Assembly (NCBI GenBank): GCA_013813715.1
Contig: JACCRF010000093.1
Span: 1 to 64,000, forward strand
Reading direction: 5' to 3'
Length of the DNA: 64,000 nucleotides
DNA from: Gemmatimonadaceae bacterium
GTDB lineage: Bacteria; Gemmatimonadota; Gemmatimonadetes; Gemmatimonadales; Gemmatimonadaceae
This document shows positions 42,344-50,355 of this stretch, piece by piece. Positions within the stretch are counted from its first letter, which is position 1; each line of letters starts with the position of its first letter. A program made the translations under genes and the position numbers. Below the pieces are notes generated by a model. That model saw nothing but the letters and a program-made list of their open reading frames with translations, did no database searches and had not been told where the DNA came from.

Positions 42344-43279
42344 ATGATTGATGCTTACGCAAAACTAGCTGCTCGGCTGAATGAGTCACAGCTCAGCCAT
42401 GATGAGCTACTCTCTCCATACACCACATTTCGTATTGGCGGTCCCGCCGATCTCTTCTATCGCCCCGAGACCGCTCATGACCTCGCCAGTGCCGTCTCTG
42501 CCGCGCGTGAGCTCGGTGTGTCGTGGTTCGTTCTTGGACTCGGTGCCAACATCCTGATTGGCGACAAAGGTTTTCGCGGACTCGTAATCCGCAATCAGGC
42601 GAGTCATTTCCAGTTCTTCGATGACGGAAGGCTCTGGGTCGAGAGTGGATGTATCGTGGCAGATATCATTCCCGAAGCTGTCGAACGCGGATGGTCCGGC
42701 CTCGAGCATTATGTCGGCATCCCAAGCACGATGGGCGGAGCTGTCTGGCAGAATCTCCATTTCCTCGAGCCCGAGCCGGAGAGAAAGCGCACAATGTTCA
42801 TCGCCGATGTGTTCGAGTCCTGCGAGCTTCTCACCGAAGAGGGCGAACAAAGAACCGTCGACAAGAACTATATGGAATTCGGCTACGACACGAGCATTCT
42901 GCACAAGCGGCGTGATGTAGCGCTTGCGGTGACCTTCAGGCTGGAACGTGGGGACACCGCCGCGATGCACCGCATCATGCAGGAGAACCTGAGTTGGCGC
43001 GGCGCACGGCATCCGTGGCTCCAGTTTCATCCGAGTGCCGGCTCCATCTTCAAAAAGATCGAGGGCATGGGGGCAGGACGTCTCATCGACCAGTGCGGGC
43101 TGAAAGGCCATCGTAATGGCGGCGCGCAGATTTCTCACATTCACGCCAATATCATGGTGAATCTGGGCAAGGCAACCGCTCGCGATGTCCGGGATCTGAT
43201 CACCATGGCGCAGGATACGGTAGAAGCGAAGTTCGGTGTCCGCCTGGAACCCGAAATCGGGTTCGTGGGGGAGTTCTAA
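42344..43279 (+). CDS. murB: UDP-N-acetylenolpyruvoylglucosamine reductase
   Basis: The protein has 311 residues. FAD-binding segments FRIGGPADLFYRP and VLGLGANILIGDKGFRGLVI are typical. GIPSTMGGAVWQN binds the substrate, the catalytic Ser is in HPSAGSIFKK (Ser234), and the Glu is in LEPEIGFVG at the end. It makes UDP-MurNAc for peptidoglycan. The long insert of E. coli-type MurB is absent, so it is the shorter type II form. It overlaps the stop of the ABC-F gene by four bases and diverges closely from the M16 pair. Confidence 0.94.
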   Translation: MIDAYAKLAARLNESQLSHDELLSPYTTFRIGGPADLFYRPETAHDLASAVSAARELGVSWFVLGLGANILIGDKGFRGLVIRNQASHFQFFDDGRLWVESGCIVADIIPEAVERGWSGLEHYVGIPSTMGGAVWQNLHFLEPEPERKRTMFIADVFESCELLTEEGEQRTVDKNYMEFGYDTSILHKRRDVALAVTFRLERGDTAAMHRIMQENLSWRGARHPWLQFHPSAGSIFKKIEGMGAGRLIDQCGLKGHRNGGAQISHIHANIMVNLGKATARDVRDLITMAQDTVEAKFGVRLEPEIGFVGEF

Positions 43280-45234
43280 CGAGCCCCCTGGTGGCTTGCC
43301 TCTTCCGCCTTCTGAGTCGCCGACGTCCAATCATTAAGAGCATCGTCGAGCTTTTTCCTGAGGGCTTCGAGCTCCTTGCCGTTTTCGACCGCCTGGCGTT
43401 TGCCATCCACTGTCATATAGAGCTCGGGATCCGCGAGGGCTGACGTGAGAGTGGCAATGCGGGCCTCGAGGCTGGTGACCTTTCGCTCTGATTCTTCCGC
43501 TTTACGCCGCGCATTTCGCCCCACGTCGCGGTTCCGGCCCCGTTCATCCTCCCTTCGTTTGGTCTTCTGTTTTTCGTGCACCCGCCGCAGTGCTTCCTCC
43601 TCCGCGGCGTTCACGGACGCGGCATGAGCGCGCTCCCGGCTGGTGACTTCCCATTCCTGGAAAGTGCCGGCGAAGTCAGTAATCCGCCGTTCGTGCAACA
43701 CCCACACCCGATCAACCAGCGCTCGCAACAGCTCCCGGTCGTGACTCACGAGGATCACTGACCCCTCGTAGTCCCGGAGCGCATCCTCGAGCGCCTCAAT
43801 CGACTCGACGTCGAGATGATTCGTAGGCTCGTCCAGTATCAACAGATTGGCCTTGTCGAGAACTATCATCGCGAGGGCTACCCGAGCTCTTTCGCCGCCG
43901 GACATGGTGACCGCACTTCGCTGGACTTCATCACCGGAGAATCCGAATCGGGCCAGGTGGCTCTGTACCTGCCGTCGCTCCCAAAGTGGACGGAGATCGG
44001 CGATGATCTCATAGACTGATCTGTCCATTGGGACCTGACTCAGATCTTGCCGGTAATAGGCAGCTTTGATCGAGCCTCCAAGACGGAGCTCCCCTGCCGA
44101 GATCTCGAGTGCTCCGACGAGCGTCCGGAGAAGCGTGGATTTTCCGGTTCCATTCGGGCCGAGCAGCCCCAGGATATTGCCACGCTTAAGAGCTACAGTG
44201 AAGTCTTCGATCAGCGGACGGTCCGGGTATCCGATTGTCGCATGCTTCGCGACAAGCACCTGGTCGCCACCGCGTTCAGCGACCTCCAACCGAAGTCCCA
44301 TCGTTCCCTCGGATCCGATCGGAGAGCTGAGGCGAGGAAGACGGGAGAGAAGTTTTCTTCTCCCCTTGGCCTGTTTTGAATTCTGACCCGCGAGGTTCCG
44401 CCTGACGTAGTCCTCCTGACCGGCAACGAATTTCTGCTGCTTATCGAATGCCCGTTGCTGAGCAAGTCGTTTTTCTTCGCGCTGACGCACAAACGACTCG
44501 TAGCCTCCGACGTAAGCGAACGCCGAATCACCTTCGAAGTGCAGAACATGATCGACGACATTCGCGAGAAAGGCACGGTCGTGGCTGACGAGTGCGATCG
44601 TCTTATCGGTGCTCTTGAGGTAGTTCTCGAGCCACAGAGTAGTATCAAGGTCGAGATGGTTCGTCGGCTCGTCGAGGAGAAGGACTTCGGCAGGACTGAC
44701 GAGCTGACGGGCCAAGCCGAGCCTTCCTCGCTCACCGCCGCTGAGCTGCGTAAGTGGGCGCGTCCTCGCTTCGACCGGATCGAAGCCCAGCCCATGAAGG
44801 ACGGCATCGACACGGGGAGCGAAAGTGTATCCGCCCTCACGGTCGAACCGCTCGAGATCACGGTCATACCGGGAAAGCATTGCCGGTGTGGATCCCTCAC
44901 CCATCTCTCCGATTTTCATGCTCTGGTCAGAGAGCGACTGCTCGAGCGCAAGAAGATCGGCGAATTGCCCCGCTGCGACGGCCCATACCGTTTCAGCCGT
45001 GCCAAAGTCACGGTGCTGCTCAAGGAGTGACACACGAAGACCCGGTTGCTTCGAGACGACGCCGAACGTCGGCTGCTGCTGCCCGGTTATCAGTTTGAAG
45101 AGCGTGGTTTTTCCAGTGCCGTTCCGGCCAATGATACCCCACCTTTCGCCTCTCGCGATCGTGAACGTGATATCCTTGAAGAGAGTCGTGGCTCCGAACT
45201 GGACGCCGGCGCCCGCAACGGAGATCTGAGTCAA
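43276..45234 (-). CDS. ABC-F family ATPase
   Basis: The protein has 652 residues from the TTG at 45234, which overlaps the aminotransferase stop by four bases; an earlier ATG at 45267 is less likely. It has two ABC cassettes with Walker A GRNGTGKTT and GPNGTGKST, signatures LSGGERGR and MSGGERAR, and LDEPTNHLD twice. There is no transmembrane part. A charged linker and a C-terminal coiled coil (about 560-650) resemble Uup. ABC-F proteins act on ribosomes or DNA structures. Its placement as the last gene of a serine-biosynthesis operon is unusual. Confidence 0.9.
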   Translation of the reverse strand: MTQISVAGAGVQFGATTLFKDITFTIARGERWGIIGRNGTGKTTLFKLITGQQQPTFGVVSKQPGLRVSLLEQHRDFGTAETVWAVAAGQFADLLALEQSLSDQSMKIGEMGEGSTPAMLSRYDRDLERFDREGGYTFAPRVDAVLHGLGFDPVEARTRPLTQLSGGERGRLGLARQLVSPAEVLLLDEPTNHLDLDTTLWLENYLKSTDKTIALVSHDRAFLANVVDHVLHFEGDSAFAYVGGYESFVRQREEKRLAQQRAFDKQQKFVAGQEDYVRRNLAGQNSKQAKGRRKLLSRLPRLSSPIGSEGTMGLRLEVAERGGDQVLVAKHATIGYPDRPLIEDFTVALKRGNILGLLGPNGTGKSTLLRTLVGALEISAGELRLGGSIKAAYYRQDLSQVPMDRSVYEIIADLRPLWERRQVQSHLARFGFSGDEVQRSAVTMSGGERARVALAMIVLDKANLLILDEPTNHLDVESIEALEDALRDYEGSVILVSHDRELLRALVDRVWVLHERRITDFAGTFQEWEVTSRERAHAASVNAAEEEALRRVHEKQKTKRREDERGRNRDVGRNARRKAEESERKVTSLEARIATLTSALADPELYMTVDGKRQAVENGKELEALRKKLDDALNDWTSATQKAEEASHQGAR

Positions 45235-46322
45235 GGAACAGCCGCTCTCTCGCACGCATCCAGGCATCGTGCAAGAGTGGAGACAGTGTGGTCTCCCATG
45301 TGTCCGATTCTAAACGTGGTGTCGCGAAGCTTCCCATATCCGGCGCCGACCCTGATGCCATTCGCTGCAACAGCCGATACGAACGCATCTCCCACCAGAC
45401 GTGAAGGGAGGCGGATCGTCGATACAGTTGGCGACTGCGCATCCAGCGGCGCGATCGTCTGCCAGCCGTCTTCTCCGGCGCGCATTCTCGCGAGCCACGC
45501 CTGCGTCGCCGATGCCATGTCGGCGTGCCGTCGCCACCGGTTCGCGATGCCTTCAGCGGTCATCGCTTCGAGCTGCACCTCGAGCCCGTAGAGAAGGGAT
45601 ATGGGAGGAGTGGAAGGTACCTGTCCGTCGCGCACGTATTTCTCCAGCTCGACGATATCGAAGTAGACGCCACGTGCCGGGGCCTGTCCGGCTAGTCGAA
45701 CGAACTCTTCCGATGCGACGGCGATTGCAAGCCCAGGTGGCAGGGCCAGGGCTTTCTGCGATCCAGTTAGTACATAATCTAACCTCCAATCGTCGAACCT
45801 CAGTTCCGTGCCACCCAGGCCGCTGACACTGTCGATCAGACAAAGTGCGCCGCGCTCGTGCGCAACGTCGGAAATCGTTCTGACCGGATTGAGCGCACCG
45901 GTGGAGGTTTCAGAGTGCGCCACCGTAATCGCTCGGTACTCACGACGCGAGAGATGGTCATCCAGTGTCTCCGGATCATGAGTTTTCCCCCAACTGACCT
46001 CGAACCGGTCGACCTCGCGCCCGCACGCCTCGGCGATCCGCGCAAAGCGCTCCGAGAAAGCGCCATTCACAAGACAAAGGATCCGACCTGGAGGCGCACA
46101 GCGAACCGCTGATTCCATGAATCCGGTCGCGGAGGCCGCAACGATGTACGCCGGCCGCTGGGTTCCGAAAACGGTTCCGAGGCCACTCTGCAACCGCGTA
46201 AAGAGCGCCTCGAACTCCTCGCTCCGATGTGGAATCATCGGCTTCGTCATCGCTTCGAGCACCACCCTGCGAACTTCCGTGGGCCCGGGAACGAAGAACG
46301 TGCCAAATCCAGTATGTCTCAT
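45231..46322 (-). CDS. class V aminotransferase (serine/phosphoserine type)
   Basis: The protein has 363 residues. It begins FFVPGPTEVRRVVLEAMTKPMIPHRSEEF, as do alanine-glyoxylate and archaeal-type phosphoserine aminotransferases. The PLP-Lys is in LTGSQKALALPPGLA and the Asp in CLIDSVSGLG. By family it could be serine-pyruvate or alanine-glyoxylate aminotransferase. Lying with serA and a SerB-like gene, it most likely makes phosphoserine from 3-phosphohydroxypyruvate, since no classical serC is present here. Its start overlaps the phosphatase stop by ATGA. Confidence 0.85.
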   Translation of the reverse strand: MRHTGFGTFFVPGPTEVRRVVLEAMTKPMIPHRSEEFEALFTRLQSGLGTVFGTQRPAYIVAASATGFMESAVRCAPPGRILCLVNGAFSERFARIAEACGREVDRFEVSWGKTHDPETLDDHLSRREYRAITVAHSETSTGALNPVRTISDVAHERGALCLIDSVSGLGGTELRFDDWRLDYVLTGSQKALALPPGLAIAVASEEFVRLAGQAPARGVYFDIVELEKYVRDGQVPSTPPISLLYGLEVQLEAMTAEGIANRWRRHADMASATQAWLARMRAGEDGWQTIAPLDAQSPTVSTIRLPSRLVGDAFVSAVAANGIRVGAGYGKLRDTTFRIGHMGDHTVSTLARCLDACERAAVP

Positions 46323-46963
46323 CCCAGCACCAGCTCCATTAGTTCACTGAACGAATCCACCGCCACATCCGCCTGTTTTACGATCGCTTCACGGCGCACC
46401 ACGCCCGTGAATGCAACGAAACAATCTACTGCTGCCCTCATCTCCAGATCGGTGGCGCCATCTCCCACCACCATGGTGGGACGGGGGAGCGACAGCCCTT
46501 CAACGACCATCCGCTTGCCGTGCTGGTGGCTGAGCGGCGTGAGTCGGTCGAAGCCGGCCATCTCTCCGGCCTCGTCGAACGAAATGCCAACCGCGTGGAG
46601 ATCGCTTCCGGGGATTTCCAGCATCGATGCCAGTGGCAGGATTGCTTCACGGATTCCACCGCTGACAAGCACGATTCGGATCCCGGCTACCCGGATTGCC
46701 CTTATTGCTTCCGGCGCCCCTGGCGATATCGATTTCAGGTAGGCATCCGCGAGGCGCTCGATGTCATTCCGCGACGGACGGACAGCCGCCAGTCGCAGCT
46801 CGAATACCTCATCGAGAATCAGCTTCCCCGACATTGCCTGATCGGTCAGGCCGGCGACGTACTCAGCGATCGTCCCACCCCGCTGTGCCGCCAGCCAGTC
46901 AATCCCTTCGAGCGCGGTGAGGGTGGAATCGACGTCCAACACCAACGAACGGATTCCCTTCAC
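46319..46963 (-). CDS. SerB-like HAD phosphatase
   Basis: The protein has 214 residues from the GTG at 46963, whose GTGA overlaps the FAD-oxidase stop. HAD motifs are I DVDSTLT, II LVSGGI, III with Lys in the segment GKRMV, and IV VGDGATDLEM. The cap is a small helical insert like phosphoserine phosphatase. It would release serine from phosphoserine, the last step of the pathway encoded by this operon. An upstream extension of the frame to 47062 lies inside the FAD-oxidase gene and is not used. Confidence 0.87.
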   Translation of the reverse strand: MKGIRSLVLDVDSTLTALEGIDWLAAQRGGTIAEYVAGLTDQAMSGKLILDEVFELRLAAVRPSRNDIERLADAYLKSISPGAPEAIRAIRVAGIRIVLVSGGIREAILPLASMLEIPGSDLHAVGISFDEAGEMAGFDRLTPLSHQHGKRMVVEGLSLPRPTMVVGDGATDLEMRAAVDCFVAFTGVVRREAIVKQADVAVDSFSELMELVLG

Positions 46964-48324
46964 AGCATGTTTCCGCGTGCCAGGACGTTGTACGGATCCA
47001 GCTCGTGCTTTATTGCTCTCATCGCCCCAATCTGAATCGCGCTCATCTGAAGCCCGACCCATTTGCGCTTCAGCTTCCCGATTCCATGCTCGGCTGCGAC
47101 CGTTCCACCCATCGCCAGGATTGCCTTGAGCGTTTTTTCGATTACCCGTTCGATTACTGCCAGCTCGCTGGCGTCGCGCGCGACATAATTCTGATGCGGA
47201 TGCCCGTTCCCGGCGTGTCCGTAGATCACAGCCTGTCCGACTCCGGAGCCCGCGGCGATCTGGCGGGCAACTGTCAATGCTTCGCCAAGTCGCCGGTAGG
47301 GAACCGCCCAGTCGGTTGATACCTTGCGGCCTCCTGTTCTGCGGTACATCGCGCCACGTTCATTCATCGTCGCCGGCACTGCGTGACGCAGCCTCCTGGC
47401 TTGGCGAAGCTGCGAATCCCCTTCGAAGACCCTCACATCCGAGTCGGCTTTGAATCTCTCCGCCAGTTCCATCCATTTCTCGAAGGTGTCAGCATCTTCG
47501 AGCCCTTCCTCTTCGACATACACCATCGCCTGCGCGTCTGGCGCCCAGCCAGGGCGTTCATCAGCCGAACGCGCAATCTCAAATGCGAGCCCGTCGAAAT
47601 ACTCCAAACAGCGCGCGCTGACCGACTGCGATTCCCGTGCTTCGACAACGAACCCAAGAGCCATCTCTTCGGACGCGAACGGGAATGCGATCCCAAGCGC
47701 CTGGCCGGGGTCTGGTATGAGCCCTAACTCGGCCTCGAGAATGACCCCCAGCGTTCCTTCGCTTCCGATGAACCAGTCAACGGGATCGTGCGCGAAGGCG
47801 TAGCCGACGGTGTTTTTCTCCAGGTTCGATCGCCGCAACTCGATGATTTCGCCTGACGCCAGCGCAACTTTCAGCGCTCTGATATGAGGCCGTGTCGCCC
47901 CGTACCTGAGCGAGCGTGCGCCTGACGCGTTGCAGGCGATTGCCCCTCCGACAGTTGATTCGTTCTCGCTCGTCGGATCTGGAGGGAAGAGCATCCCCTC
48001 CGCGGCTACCAGGCGCTTCACATCACCGAGTAGCGCCCCCGCCTCGACACGCATCATCATCTGCGCCTTATCGAAGTCGACGATGCGTGCGAGTCTCCGC
48101 AGGGAGAGCAGAATTCCCCCATCGGTAATCGAAGACGCCGTGGTGCTGGTCTGTGCACCCGCGGGAGTGATACCGGTTTGCTCCAAAGTTGCTTGCTTCA
48201 GGAGCTCCACCACTTCTTCTGGCGAATCAGGCCGGGCCACCGCATCGGGAAGCATGATCACCCCTGAAGCGTCGCTGCTATAGGCTTCCCTTATTTCCCG
48301 ATCGATGTTGAGCTCGATGCTCAC
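46960..48324 (-). CDS. FAD-linked 2-hydroxyacid dehydrogenase (GlcD/D2HGDH type)
   Basis: The protein has 454 residues. The FAD_binding_4 domain has TPAGAQTSTTASSIT, PDPTSENESTVGGAIACNASG and IGSEGTLGVI. The C-terminal oxidase domain has the metal/substrate motif YGHAGNGHPHQN and AAEHGIGKLKRKW. The family includes glycolate, D-lactate and D-2-hydroxyglutarate dehydrogenases. It sits between serA and the SerB-like gene with four-base overlaps on both sides. It may remove the D-2-hydroxyglutarate that SerA can make, or oxidise another serine-pathway by-product. The GTG start at 48324 overlaps the serA stop. Confidence 0.88.
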   Translation of the reverse strand: MSIELNIDREIREAYSSDASGVIMLPDAVARPDSPEEVVELLKQATLEQTGITPAGAQTSTTASSITDGGILLSLRRLARIVDFDKAQMMMRVEAGALLGDVKRLVAAEGMLFPPDPTSENESTVGGAIACNASGARSLRYGATRPHIRALKVALASGEIIELRRSNLEKNTVGYAFAHDPVDWFIGSEGTLGVILEAELGLIPDPGQALGIAFPFASEEMALGFVVEARESQSVSARCLEYFDGLAFEIARSADERPGWAPDAQAMVYVEEEGLEDADTFEKWMELAERFKADSDVRVFEGDSQLRQARRLRHAVPATMNERGAMYRRTGGRKVSTDWAVPYRRLGEALTVARQIAAGSGVGQAVIYGHAGNGHPHQNYVARDASELAVIERVIEKTLKAILAMGGTVAAEHGIGKLKRKWVGLQMSAIQIGAMRAIKHELDPYNVLARGNML

Positions 48325-49931
48325 CCGTTGTCGAAGCAGACCACTGCTGCCGACATTACATCGGGCAGCGCGAGGAGTGAATTGCGAATCGCTTCGCCGA
48401 CCTGACCATCCACCGACACGGCGGCCAGCGCCTGTCCACCCTGCGCCAGACGCGCCTGATGATACTCGGCGATGTTGACGCCTGCCTCACCCAGCAACGT
48501 ACCAACCCGTCCGATGACTCCGGGAACATCTCTATTCGTCAGGATGAGCAGCGTTCCACGTGGCTGAATGTCAACGTGAAATGCGCCGACGCGGGTGAGG
48601 CGCGGCACACTGTTCATTGGAGCCACACCGGCGACGGCAATTTCCCGCATGCCGCCGCTGATCCGCACCTCGATCGCATCGGGGTTCTCGAGGCCACCTG
48701 TCTCGACGACCGACAGATCTACGCCGCGCGCAGCAGCGAGTGAGCGAGCATTGATCAGATTGAGACGCTCACGCTCGATCACGCCTTCCAGAACTCCTAC
48801 GGCTGCGGAAGCCAGTAAGGCATGCGACGCTCCCGTAAAGGCAGGCCCGCACCGTACATCCACCCTTTGTATCTCACGCATGTCCTGACTGGCCAGGATT
48901 GCTCTTGCCACTGCCGCCATACGGTGTGCTAGAAGTAGAACGGGTTGAAGCTTTTTCCACTCGCCGCCTTCGATCCCCGCAACATTTATGGATCGGGAGA
49001 GATCACCGCTCAGCAGTGCGTCACGGACGGCGATGCACACGTCCACAGCGACATTTCTCTGCGCCTCGGACGTCGATGCACCGATGTGAGGTGTGAGGAA
49101 CAGATTCTGAAGTTCACGCAGTGGGTGATCCCGCGCGAGCGGCTCCGTGGAGAATGCATCGAGGGCCGCACCCCTCAGGTGCCCGCTGCGAAGAACACTT
49201 GCGAGCGCATCTTCGTCGACGATCCCACCTCGCGCCATGTTCACGACGACAGCACCCGGCTTGAGCCTCGACAGCTCTCTCTTTCCAACCATCCCACTCG
49301 TCTCTTCCGTAAGCGGCGTGTGCACAGTGAGGATGTCAGCTGCCTCCAGCAGCTCTTCGAGTGACTCTGCGCGCCGCGTCTGCAGTGTCTGAAAACGCAC
49401 CTGTGATACGTATGGATCGAACGCAACCGTCTCCATTCCAAACGCCACAGCCCGAGTAGTGATCTCACCGCCAATTCGACCGAGTCCGACAATTCCAAGC
49501 GTACGGCCGCGAAGCTCAGCGCCGAGAAGGCCCGAGCGATCCCATAATCCCTCGTGCATCGAGGCGTTGGCGCGGGACAGATTGCGGAGCAGCGCAATCA
49601 CCACGCCGAAAAAGAGCTCCGCTACCGCGACGGTGTTCCCCGCAGGGGCGTTGATAACGGCGATGCCGAGCCGGGTCGCCACGTCGAGCGCGATGTTGTC
49701 CACCCCGACACCCGCTCGGCCCACCACCTTCAGCTTCCCGCCGCGCTCGAGAAGTTCCGCAGAAATCCGCGTCGCACTGCGTCCCACAATCGCGTCGTAT
49801 TCCGCGATCCGCGCGAGCAGCTCCGCAGGCGGGAGGGTTGGCACTTCGTCGACCGAGACGCTGGGATCAGCTGCGAGGAGCGCTACTCCGTCGGGGTCTA
49901 TGTCGTCGGTAACTAAAACCCTAGATTGCAC
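48321..49931 (-). CDS. serA: D-3-phosphoglycerate dehydrogenase, long form
   Basis: The protein has 536 residues, the length of the type I enzyme. The NAD site is GIVGLGRIGGEI. The catalytic set comprises the Arg in NMARGGIVDEDAL, the downstream Glu and the His in LTPHIGAST. An intervening ASB-like domain and a C-terminal ACT domain (about 465-536, GTLLILTNRDVPGVIGRVGTLLGE) follow; these bind serine in feedback-controlled forms. It starts the pathway from 3-phosphoglycerate and heads the operon. The start is GTG at 49931. Confidence 0.95.
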   Translation of the reverse strand: MQSRVLVTDDIDPDGVALLAADPSVSVDEVPTLPPAELLARIAEYDAIVGRSATRISAELLERGGKLKVVGRAGVGVDNIALDVATRLGIAVINAPAGNTVAVAELFFGVVIALLRNLSRANASMHEGLWDRSGLLGAELRGRTLGIVGLGRIGGEITTRAVAFGMETVAFDPYVSQVRFQTLQTRRAESLEELLEAADILTVHTPLTEETSGMVGKRELSRLKPGAVVVNMARGGIVDEDALASVLRSGHLRGAALDAFSTEPLARDHPLRELQNLFLTPHIGASTSEAQRNVAVDVCIAVRDALLSGDLSRSINVAGIEGGEWKKLQPVLLLAHRMAAVARAILASQDMREIQRVDVRCGPAFTGASHALLASAAVGVLEGVIERERLNLINARSLAAARGVDLSVVETGGLENPDAIEVRISGGMREIAVAGVAPMNSVPRLTRVGAFHVDIQPRGTLLILTNRDVPGVIGRVGTLLGEAGVNIAEYHQARLAQGGQALAAVSVDGQVGEAIRNSLLALPDVMSAAVVCFDNG

Positions 49932-50001: not shown

Positions 50002-50355
50002 CTATTTCCCCACCCAGGTTCTCCATGTCGCTTCATCCAATCCGATCGTCAATTGATTCGCGCTCCGGACGAGAGGCATACGCAGCAGCAGTGGCTCTTC
50101 CGCCAGCTTGCTCACCCAGCTCTCATCCGACATGCGTGCATGTCTGAGTCCCAGTTCCTGAAAGGCAGGAGAGCCCGTGTCTATGAGTGCACCAACTCCG
50201 AACTTCTGTGCGAACCGGCGCAGCTCACCGAGTGACGCCGCCCGTTCGTCGAGATCCACGAAATGAGTCTTGATCCGCCGCTCTGCGAAGAAGCGAAGCG
50301 CCTTCCTTGTATCCGCGCTCTTTCGGATGCCGAATATCTGGACTTCCATTGCCAT
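50002..50355 (-). CDS. ArsC/Spx-family protein lacking the active-site Cys
   Basis: The protein has 117 residues, the usual ArsC length; Met3 is an alternative start. The fold signature is clear: FGIRKSADTRKALRFF at the N-terminus and LRMPLVRSANQLTIGLDEATW at the C-terminus. In ArsC, YffB and Spx the N-terminal loop holds a catalytic Cys (for example GIKNCDT). Here the position reads Lys-Ser, so arsenate reduction is unlikely. It may bind a partner, as Spx-like proteins do with RNA polymerase. It is divergent from the YheT-type hydrolase. Confidence 0.8.
   Translation of the reverse strand: MAMEVQIFGIRKSADTRKALRFFAERRIKTHFVDLDERAASLGELRRFAQKFGVGALIDTGSPAFQELGLRHARMSDESWVSKLAEEPLLLRMPLVRSANQLTIGLDEATWRTWVGK

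Follow-up and report, generated by a model that had tools for sequence, protein, structure and literature searches.

Driving the uphill 3-phosphoglycerate step of serine synthesis is an old question, and the answers so far concern type II SerA from a few proteobacteria. In Pseudomonas stutzeri, as related in PMC9504171 and PMC8651671, coupling between SerA and D-2-hydroxyglutarate dehydrogenase (D2HGDH) has been established (Zhang et al. 2017), and serA is a frequent neighbour of bacterial d2hgdh genes (PMC8651671). The locus described here lies in a 64,000-nucleotide stretch of the genome of a soil bacterium of the Gemmatimonadaceae, hereafter called the window. It joins a flavin dehydrogenase of a subfamily without a characterised member to a type I SerA, an association that recurs across many Gemmatimonadota. 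What does the flavin enzyme do beside SerA? If the tie is functional, a 2-hydroxyglutarate shuttle may extend to type I SerA, or a flavin enzyme may join serine synthesis in a new way.

Organisation of the locus

On the minus strand of the window, serA, the FAD dehydrogenase gene, a serB-like gene, a class V aminotransferase gene and an ABC-F gene are collinear (Table 1), and four 4-bp overlaps, reading GTGA, GTGA, ATGA and TTGA, join the five. The initial annotation had described these genes and overlaps, and we confirmed both by coordinates, junction reading and family profiles. An ArsC-like gene that it did not mention lies on the same strand and ends 70 bp upstream of serA. In some relatives within the genus this gene and serA are nearly contiguous, with about 10 bp or less between them in L081 and L087. 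At window positions 43276-43279, the stop codons of the convergent ABC-F (TAG, minus strand) and murB (TAA, plus strand) genes overlap by 4 bp.

Table 1. Genes of the serine locus and their supporting profile matches (window coordinates)
Feature	Coordinates	Strand	Details
serA, type I D-3-phosphoglycerate dehydrogenase (catalytic, ASB and ACT domains)	48321..49931	-	GTG start, 536 aa; TIGR01327 521.9 bits over 4-531
FAD-dependent D-2-hydroxyacid dehydrogenase, uncharacterised subfamily, proposed D-2-hydroxyglutarate dehydrogenase	46960..48324	-	GTG start, 454 aa; FAD_binding_4 PF01565 and FAD-oxidase_C PF02913
serB-like HAD-IB phosphoserine phosphatase	46319..46963	-	GTG start, 214 aa; TIGR00338 87.5 bits
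Class V (AGXT-type) aminotransferase, proposed phosphoserine aminotransferase	45231..46322	-	ATG start, 363 aa; PF00266
ABC-F ATPase, 3'-terminal passenger confined to the genus	43276..45234	-	TTG start, 652 aa; NF000355 416 bits, PF00005 x2, PF12848
ArsC/Spx-like gene, possible first cistron in the window's genus	50002..50355	-	PF03960 44.7 bits

A probable serine pathway

The window SerA is of type I: its TIGR01327 score (521.9 bits) exceeds the cut-off of 454, and it carries the ASB and ACT domains. Its best solved match is the M. tuberculosis PGDH (1ygy), aligned over the full length, and it lacks the domain make-up of type II SerA, the trait that goes with 2-oxoglutarate reduction. The SerB-like protein falls below the cut-off of TIGR00338 (87.5 against 144.15 bits) and thus outside that model; its best solved match is human PSP (1l8l), and the PSP-type DVDST motif is present. 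This gene was the only serB hit in the genome. The aminotransferase scored 57 bits against the SerC equivalog TIGR01366, whose cut-off is 402, and is therefore not a member. Its nearest kin are the serine/alanine-glyoxylate and BhcA-type enzymes, and its orthologs adjoin serA through much of the class. No SerC was seen among the class V aminotransferase hits examined elsewhere in the genome, all but five weak ones: those scanned were cysteine desulfurase- or PvdN-like, and those that were only read were similar. We therefore propose the aminotransferase as the best SerC candidate, a putative non-orthologous replacement, as the initial annotation had suggested for an AGXT-type enzyme. With neither a further serB nor a serC among the hits examined, the operon is probably the organism's serine pathway.

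The ABC-F protein belongs to its family by the NF000355 score (416 bits, cut-off 380) and by its two ABC_tran domains and linker. The gene is attached to the operon only in some members of the window's genus, in G000, G010 and G062 and, by likeness, in L087, L120 and L133. In the close relative L086 it is missing and murB directly follows the aminotransferase gene; the ABC-F gene adjoins murB as much as it does the serine genes. The idea that it ties serine supply to translation was rejected on these grounds, and we regard it as a genus-level neighbour outside the mechanism.

Conservation of the operon in the phylum

We found orthologs of the FAD gene in 29 of the 121 Gemmatimonadota genomes sampled (496-992 bits), with a gap below them and the next group only at 163 bits. 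In 27 of these 29 the gene comes directly after a type I serA, separated from it in G071 and a few further genomes by a gap, short or longer, and with such a count the adjacency is not due to chance. serB follows the FAD gene in 24 (1.7 kb away in G071), and the aminotransferase gene comes next after serB in 22. Four-base overlaps were also found in the relatives, window excluded, at 8/25 serA-FAD, 16/22 FAD-serB and 16/30 serB-aminotransferase junctions. The serA-FAD pairing occurs outside the window's family too, in G012, G037, G041 and G069, the last three of which have the pair without serB and the aminotransferase gene. A scan of named genomes, some of them also in the phylum sample, gave dozens of Gemmatimonadota, mainly metagenome-assembled genomes, with the identical gene order. 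Of the five-gene order whose conservation in relatives was at issue, serA-FAD, usually followed by serB and the aminotransferase gene, was thus upheld, whereas ABC-F was shared by only part of one genus. We looked for serA beside FAD relatives outside the phylum and found none there.

In a tree of 48 SerA sequences, of which 26 are FAD-linked, one clade (100/100) holds all 26 together with four from FAD-less loci (the g13 genomes and G094). The FAD-linked label requires 3 changes on this tree versus 16.3 in shuffles, and 0 of 500 shuffles were as low. The absence of the FAD gene beside the g13 and G094 SerA probably reflects losses. FAD-less genomes of the class usually have the order aminotransferase-serA, and that serA is only 38-53% identical. 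The single clade and the 27/29 linkage support the functional link between SerA and the FAD enzyme that had been claimed for this locus. One genome that has the operon, G026, also encodes another type I serA from the FAD-linked clade (C27:35454-37073; 63% identical to that of the window).

In G016, the aminotransferase and ABC-F genes are at the old site and a serA-FAD-serB trio lies elsewhere in the genome. The serA, FAD and serB products are 60, 53 and 44% identical to those of the window, versus 78-85% for the ABC-F, murB, M16 and ArsC neighbours, so that the trio looks as if it had been exchanged as a unit.

There are exceptions in both directions. The FAD gene is missing from the serA-serB-aminotransferase loci of the g13 genomes and G094 and is therefore dispensable. 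G057 and G121 keep an FAD-aminotransferase pair at a locus without serB and in a genome without type I SerA, and G044 has the FAD gene and likewise no type I SerA. Shorter NAD-linked hydroxyacid dehydrogenases, present in these genomes, could serve as type III SerA. Other Gemmatimonas genomes carry the full set (G092, G124, G129 and G130) or have no FAD ortholog. In the Gemmatimonas-type L029 and L114, the operon is reduced to FAD-aminotransferase, serB being absent between the two and type I SerA from the whole genome. Type I SerA is also missing, with the aminotransferase kept, from G004, G021, G023, G073, G087 and others.

The FAD enzyme and its active site

The FAD enzyme is 24-28% identical to the solved structures of LctD, LDHD, glycolate oxidase and D2HGDH, and its AF2 model (pLDDT 85) has the LctD/LDHD/D2HGDH fold. 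In our tree it forms its own clade (100/99), apart from every characterised type included, together with relatives from Melainabacteria, Eisenbacteria, Acidobacteria, Ignavibacteria and others. It does not group with 6LPN and 3PM9, the only two D2HGDH-type rows in that tree, in which PDB rows were transcribed from alignments. By sequence, then, the enzyme belongs to an uncharacterised subfamily and falls outside the orthologs of known D2HGDH. It is not the genome's GlcD either, as a separate GlcD-like paralog (L195) scores 465 bits.

With the human-type D2HGDH (6LPN, 3PM9) the enzyme shares the fold (TM about 0.8) and the catalytic and metal residues, but it lies in a separate clade, is about 25-27% identical and has no K401 or T390. 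Residue comparison showed that R313, H370, H377, E412 and H413 are invariant in the family, matching the catalytic and metal set R386/H434/H441/E475/H476 of the human enzyme (PMC7801405). K401 and T390, the grip on the C5 carboxylate, are replaced by S336 and P317. K/R334, invariant in the family, may stand in for K401, and R238, H314 and H375 are further conserved basic or imidazole residues. N379 and Y/F368, which correspond to D2HGDH residues that bind the C5 carboxylate, are for the most part retained, and the motif reads STD as in LDHD, versus KxD in D2HGDH.

Among solved proteins, the best structural and sequence match is LctD (7QH2), a flavin enzyme that operates together with ETF in the Ldh-EtfAB complex of Acetobacterium; identity is only 28%, however, the clade is different and no EtfAB genes lie at the window locus. 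YdiJ of E. coli and Pantoea, itself a D-2-hydroxyglutarate dehydrogenase (PMC9504171), is homologous in the FAD domain (97.5 bits), but this is far under the family cut-off of 1350, and the window enzyme has no long C-terminal part.

Melainabacteria relatives as a clue to the substrate

Relatives of the FAD enzyme in Melainabacteria are 38-42% identical and keep nearly all active-site residues. A class III aminotransferase gene, an aldehyde dehydrogenase gene or both lie near the FAD relative in 8 of 9 of these genomes, and a gene for a DUF1338-like protein of 215 aa does so in 5 of 9. Profile comparison matched this protein to the DUF1338 structure 3LHO (E 1.6e-6), and a Pfam scan gave only weak Glyoxalase/HGLS hits. 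The substrate of the DUF1338 enzymes HglS and FLO7 is 2-oxoadipate, from which HglS makes D-2-hydroxyglutarate (PMC7286885). In such lysine-type clusters a DUF1338-like gene occurs and serine genes are absent. Because nearly all active-site residues are as in the window enzyme, D-2-hydroxyglutarate is our best guess for the substrate of both.

HglS as a rival, local source of D-2-hydroxyglutarate was rejected, since PF07063 had no match in the 121 phylum genomes, a search that a short divergent protein of the Melainabacteria type could escape. In L124, L125, L127 and L128, the short DUF1338-like proteins (215 aa), below the Pfam HGLS cut-off, lie beside the aminotransferase and aldehyde dehydrogenase, possibly forming a lysine degradation cluster with an unrecognised hydroxyglutarate synthase.

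A possible hydroxyglutarate shuttle

At a probability of about 0.5, we favour the reading that the operon encodes the full phosphorylated serine pathway together with an FAD dehydrogenase that is coupled to SerA and oxidises D-2-hydroxyglutarate made by SerA. SerA, the AGXT-type phosphoserine aminotransferase and the PSP-type SerB would make up the complete pathway, and translational coupling would let the FAD dehydrogenase be made in step with SerA. Using the NADH just formed from 3-phosphoglycerate, SerA would reduce 2-oxoglutarate to D-2-hydroxyglutarate; the FAD enzyme would oxidise this product, regenerate 2-oxoglutarate and keep SerA in its NAD+ form. Electrons would pass from the FAD enzyme to ETF, ETF-quinone oxidoreductase (ETF-QO) and the respiratory chain. 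Genes for ETF-alpha and ETF-QO lie together in the genome, at a locus whose remainder is cut off by a contig end. The 27/29 linkage, the single SerA clade, the G016 trio, the catalytic set and the ETF genes all argue for the shuttle, and the Melainabacteria context favours, without proving, removal of D-2-hydroxyglutarate by the FAD enzyme.

The arrangement resembles the P. stutzeri system, as far as the two articles cited above describe it, in pairing serA with an FAD 2-hydroxyacid dehydrogenase and in having ETF-alpha and ETF-QO in the genome. Unlike that system, it has a type I SerA (that of Pseudomonas is type II), an FAD enzyme of another subfamily and an operon that is complete, including serB and the gene for an AGXT-type aminotransferase. 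SerA-D2HGDH coupling as such was already known; the novelty lies in the FAD subfamily, in a SerA of type I and in an operon that is both complete and conserved.

The first two of these differences also weigh against the shuttle. Reduction of 2-oxoglutarate is reported for type II SerA and not for the type I enzymes of M. tuberculosis and rat, and human type I PGDH is very slow on it, about 0.08 per s, where the E. coli enzyme reaches 33 per s (PMC6300728, PMC9504171). The window SerA, being of type I, may accordingly be weak or inactive in this step. The FAD enzyme has no K401/T390 equivalents and a place outside the D2HGDH clade. Furthermore, type I serA is absent from G057 and G121, which have the FAD-aminotransferase pair, and the g13 and G094 operons lack the FAD gene.

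Given the FAD-bearing genomes without type I SerA, the enzyme might instead oxidise 3-phosphoglycerate directly, or a small hydroxyacid that feeds the aminotransferase. 3-Phosphoglycerate is itself a D-2-hydroxyacid, and the FAD enzyme could convert it to 3-phosphohydroxypyruvate for the aminotransferase, an exergonic flavin route parallel to SerA or replacing it. We consider this unlikely, as near-identical residues occur in lysine-type clusters that have the DUF1338-like gene and no serine genes, SerA is almost always retained beside the FAD gene, and we know of no member of the superfamily that acts as a dehydrogenase of a phosphorylated hydroxyacid. Its appeal comes from the G057 and G121 pairs, from the invariant K/R334 with R238, H314 and H375 in place of K401, and from the little D-2-hydroxyglutarate expected of a type I SerA (PMC6300728). 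Less likely still is a bolder version, suggested by the FAD-aminotransferase pair remaining in SerA-less Gemmatimonas genomes, in which the enzyme would be the founding flavin-dependent 3-phosphoglycerate dehydrogenase, catalysing an irreversible first serine step and able to replace SerA. It is doubtful, too, that the enzyme oxidises D-glycerate, glycolate or D-lactate, with the resulting hydroxypyruvate or glyoxylate converted by the aminotransferase to serine or glycine as a side entry. The aminotransferase's closest relatives, the G057 and G121 pairs without serA and serB, and the LDHD-like STD motif are consistent with such a route, but the genome has its separate GlcD-like paralog, N379 and Y/F368 are mostly conserved, and the Melainabacteria context points to D-2-hydroxyglutarate.

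Finally, the FAD enzyme could be a D2HGDH that clears D-2-hydroxyglutarate of any origin, its place in the operon reflecting co-regulation and no drive on SerA. Tested type I SerA make little D-2-hydroxyglutarate (PMC6300728), and the g13 genomes and G094 manage with serA-serB-aminotransferase alone, as such a disposal role would allow. We hold it to be about as unlikely as direct oxidation of 3-phosphoglycerate; against it, the linkage is specific to serA and extends to the isolated serA-FAD pairs of G037, G041 and G069.
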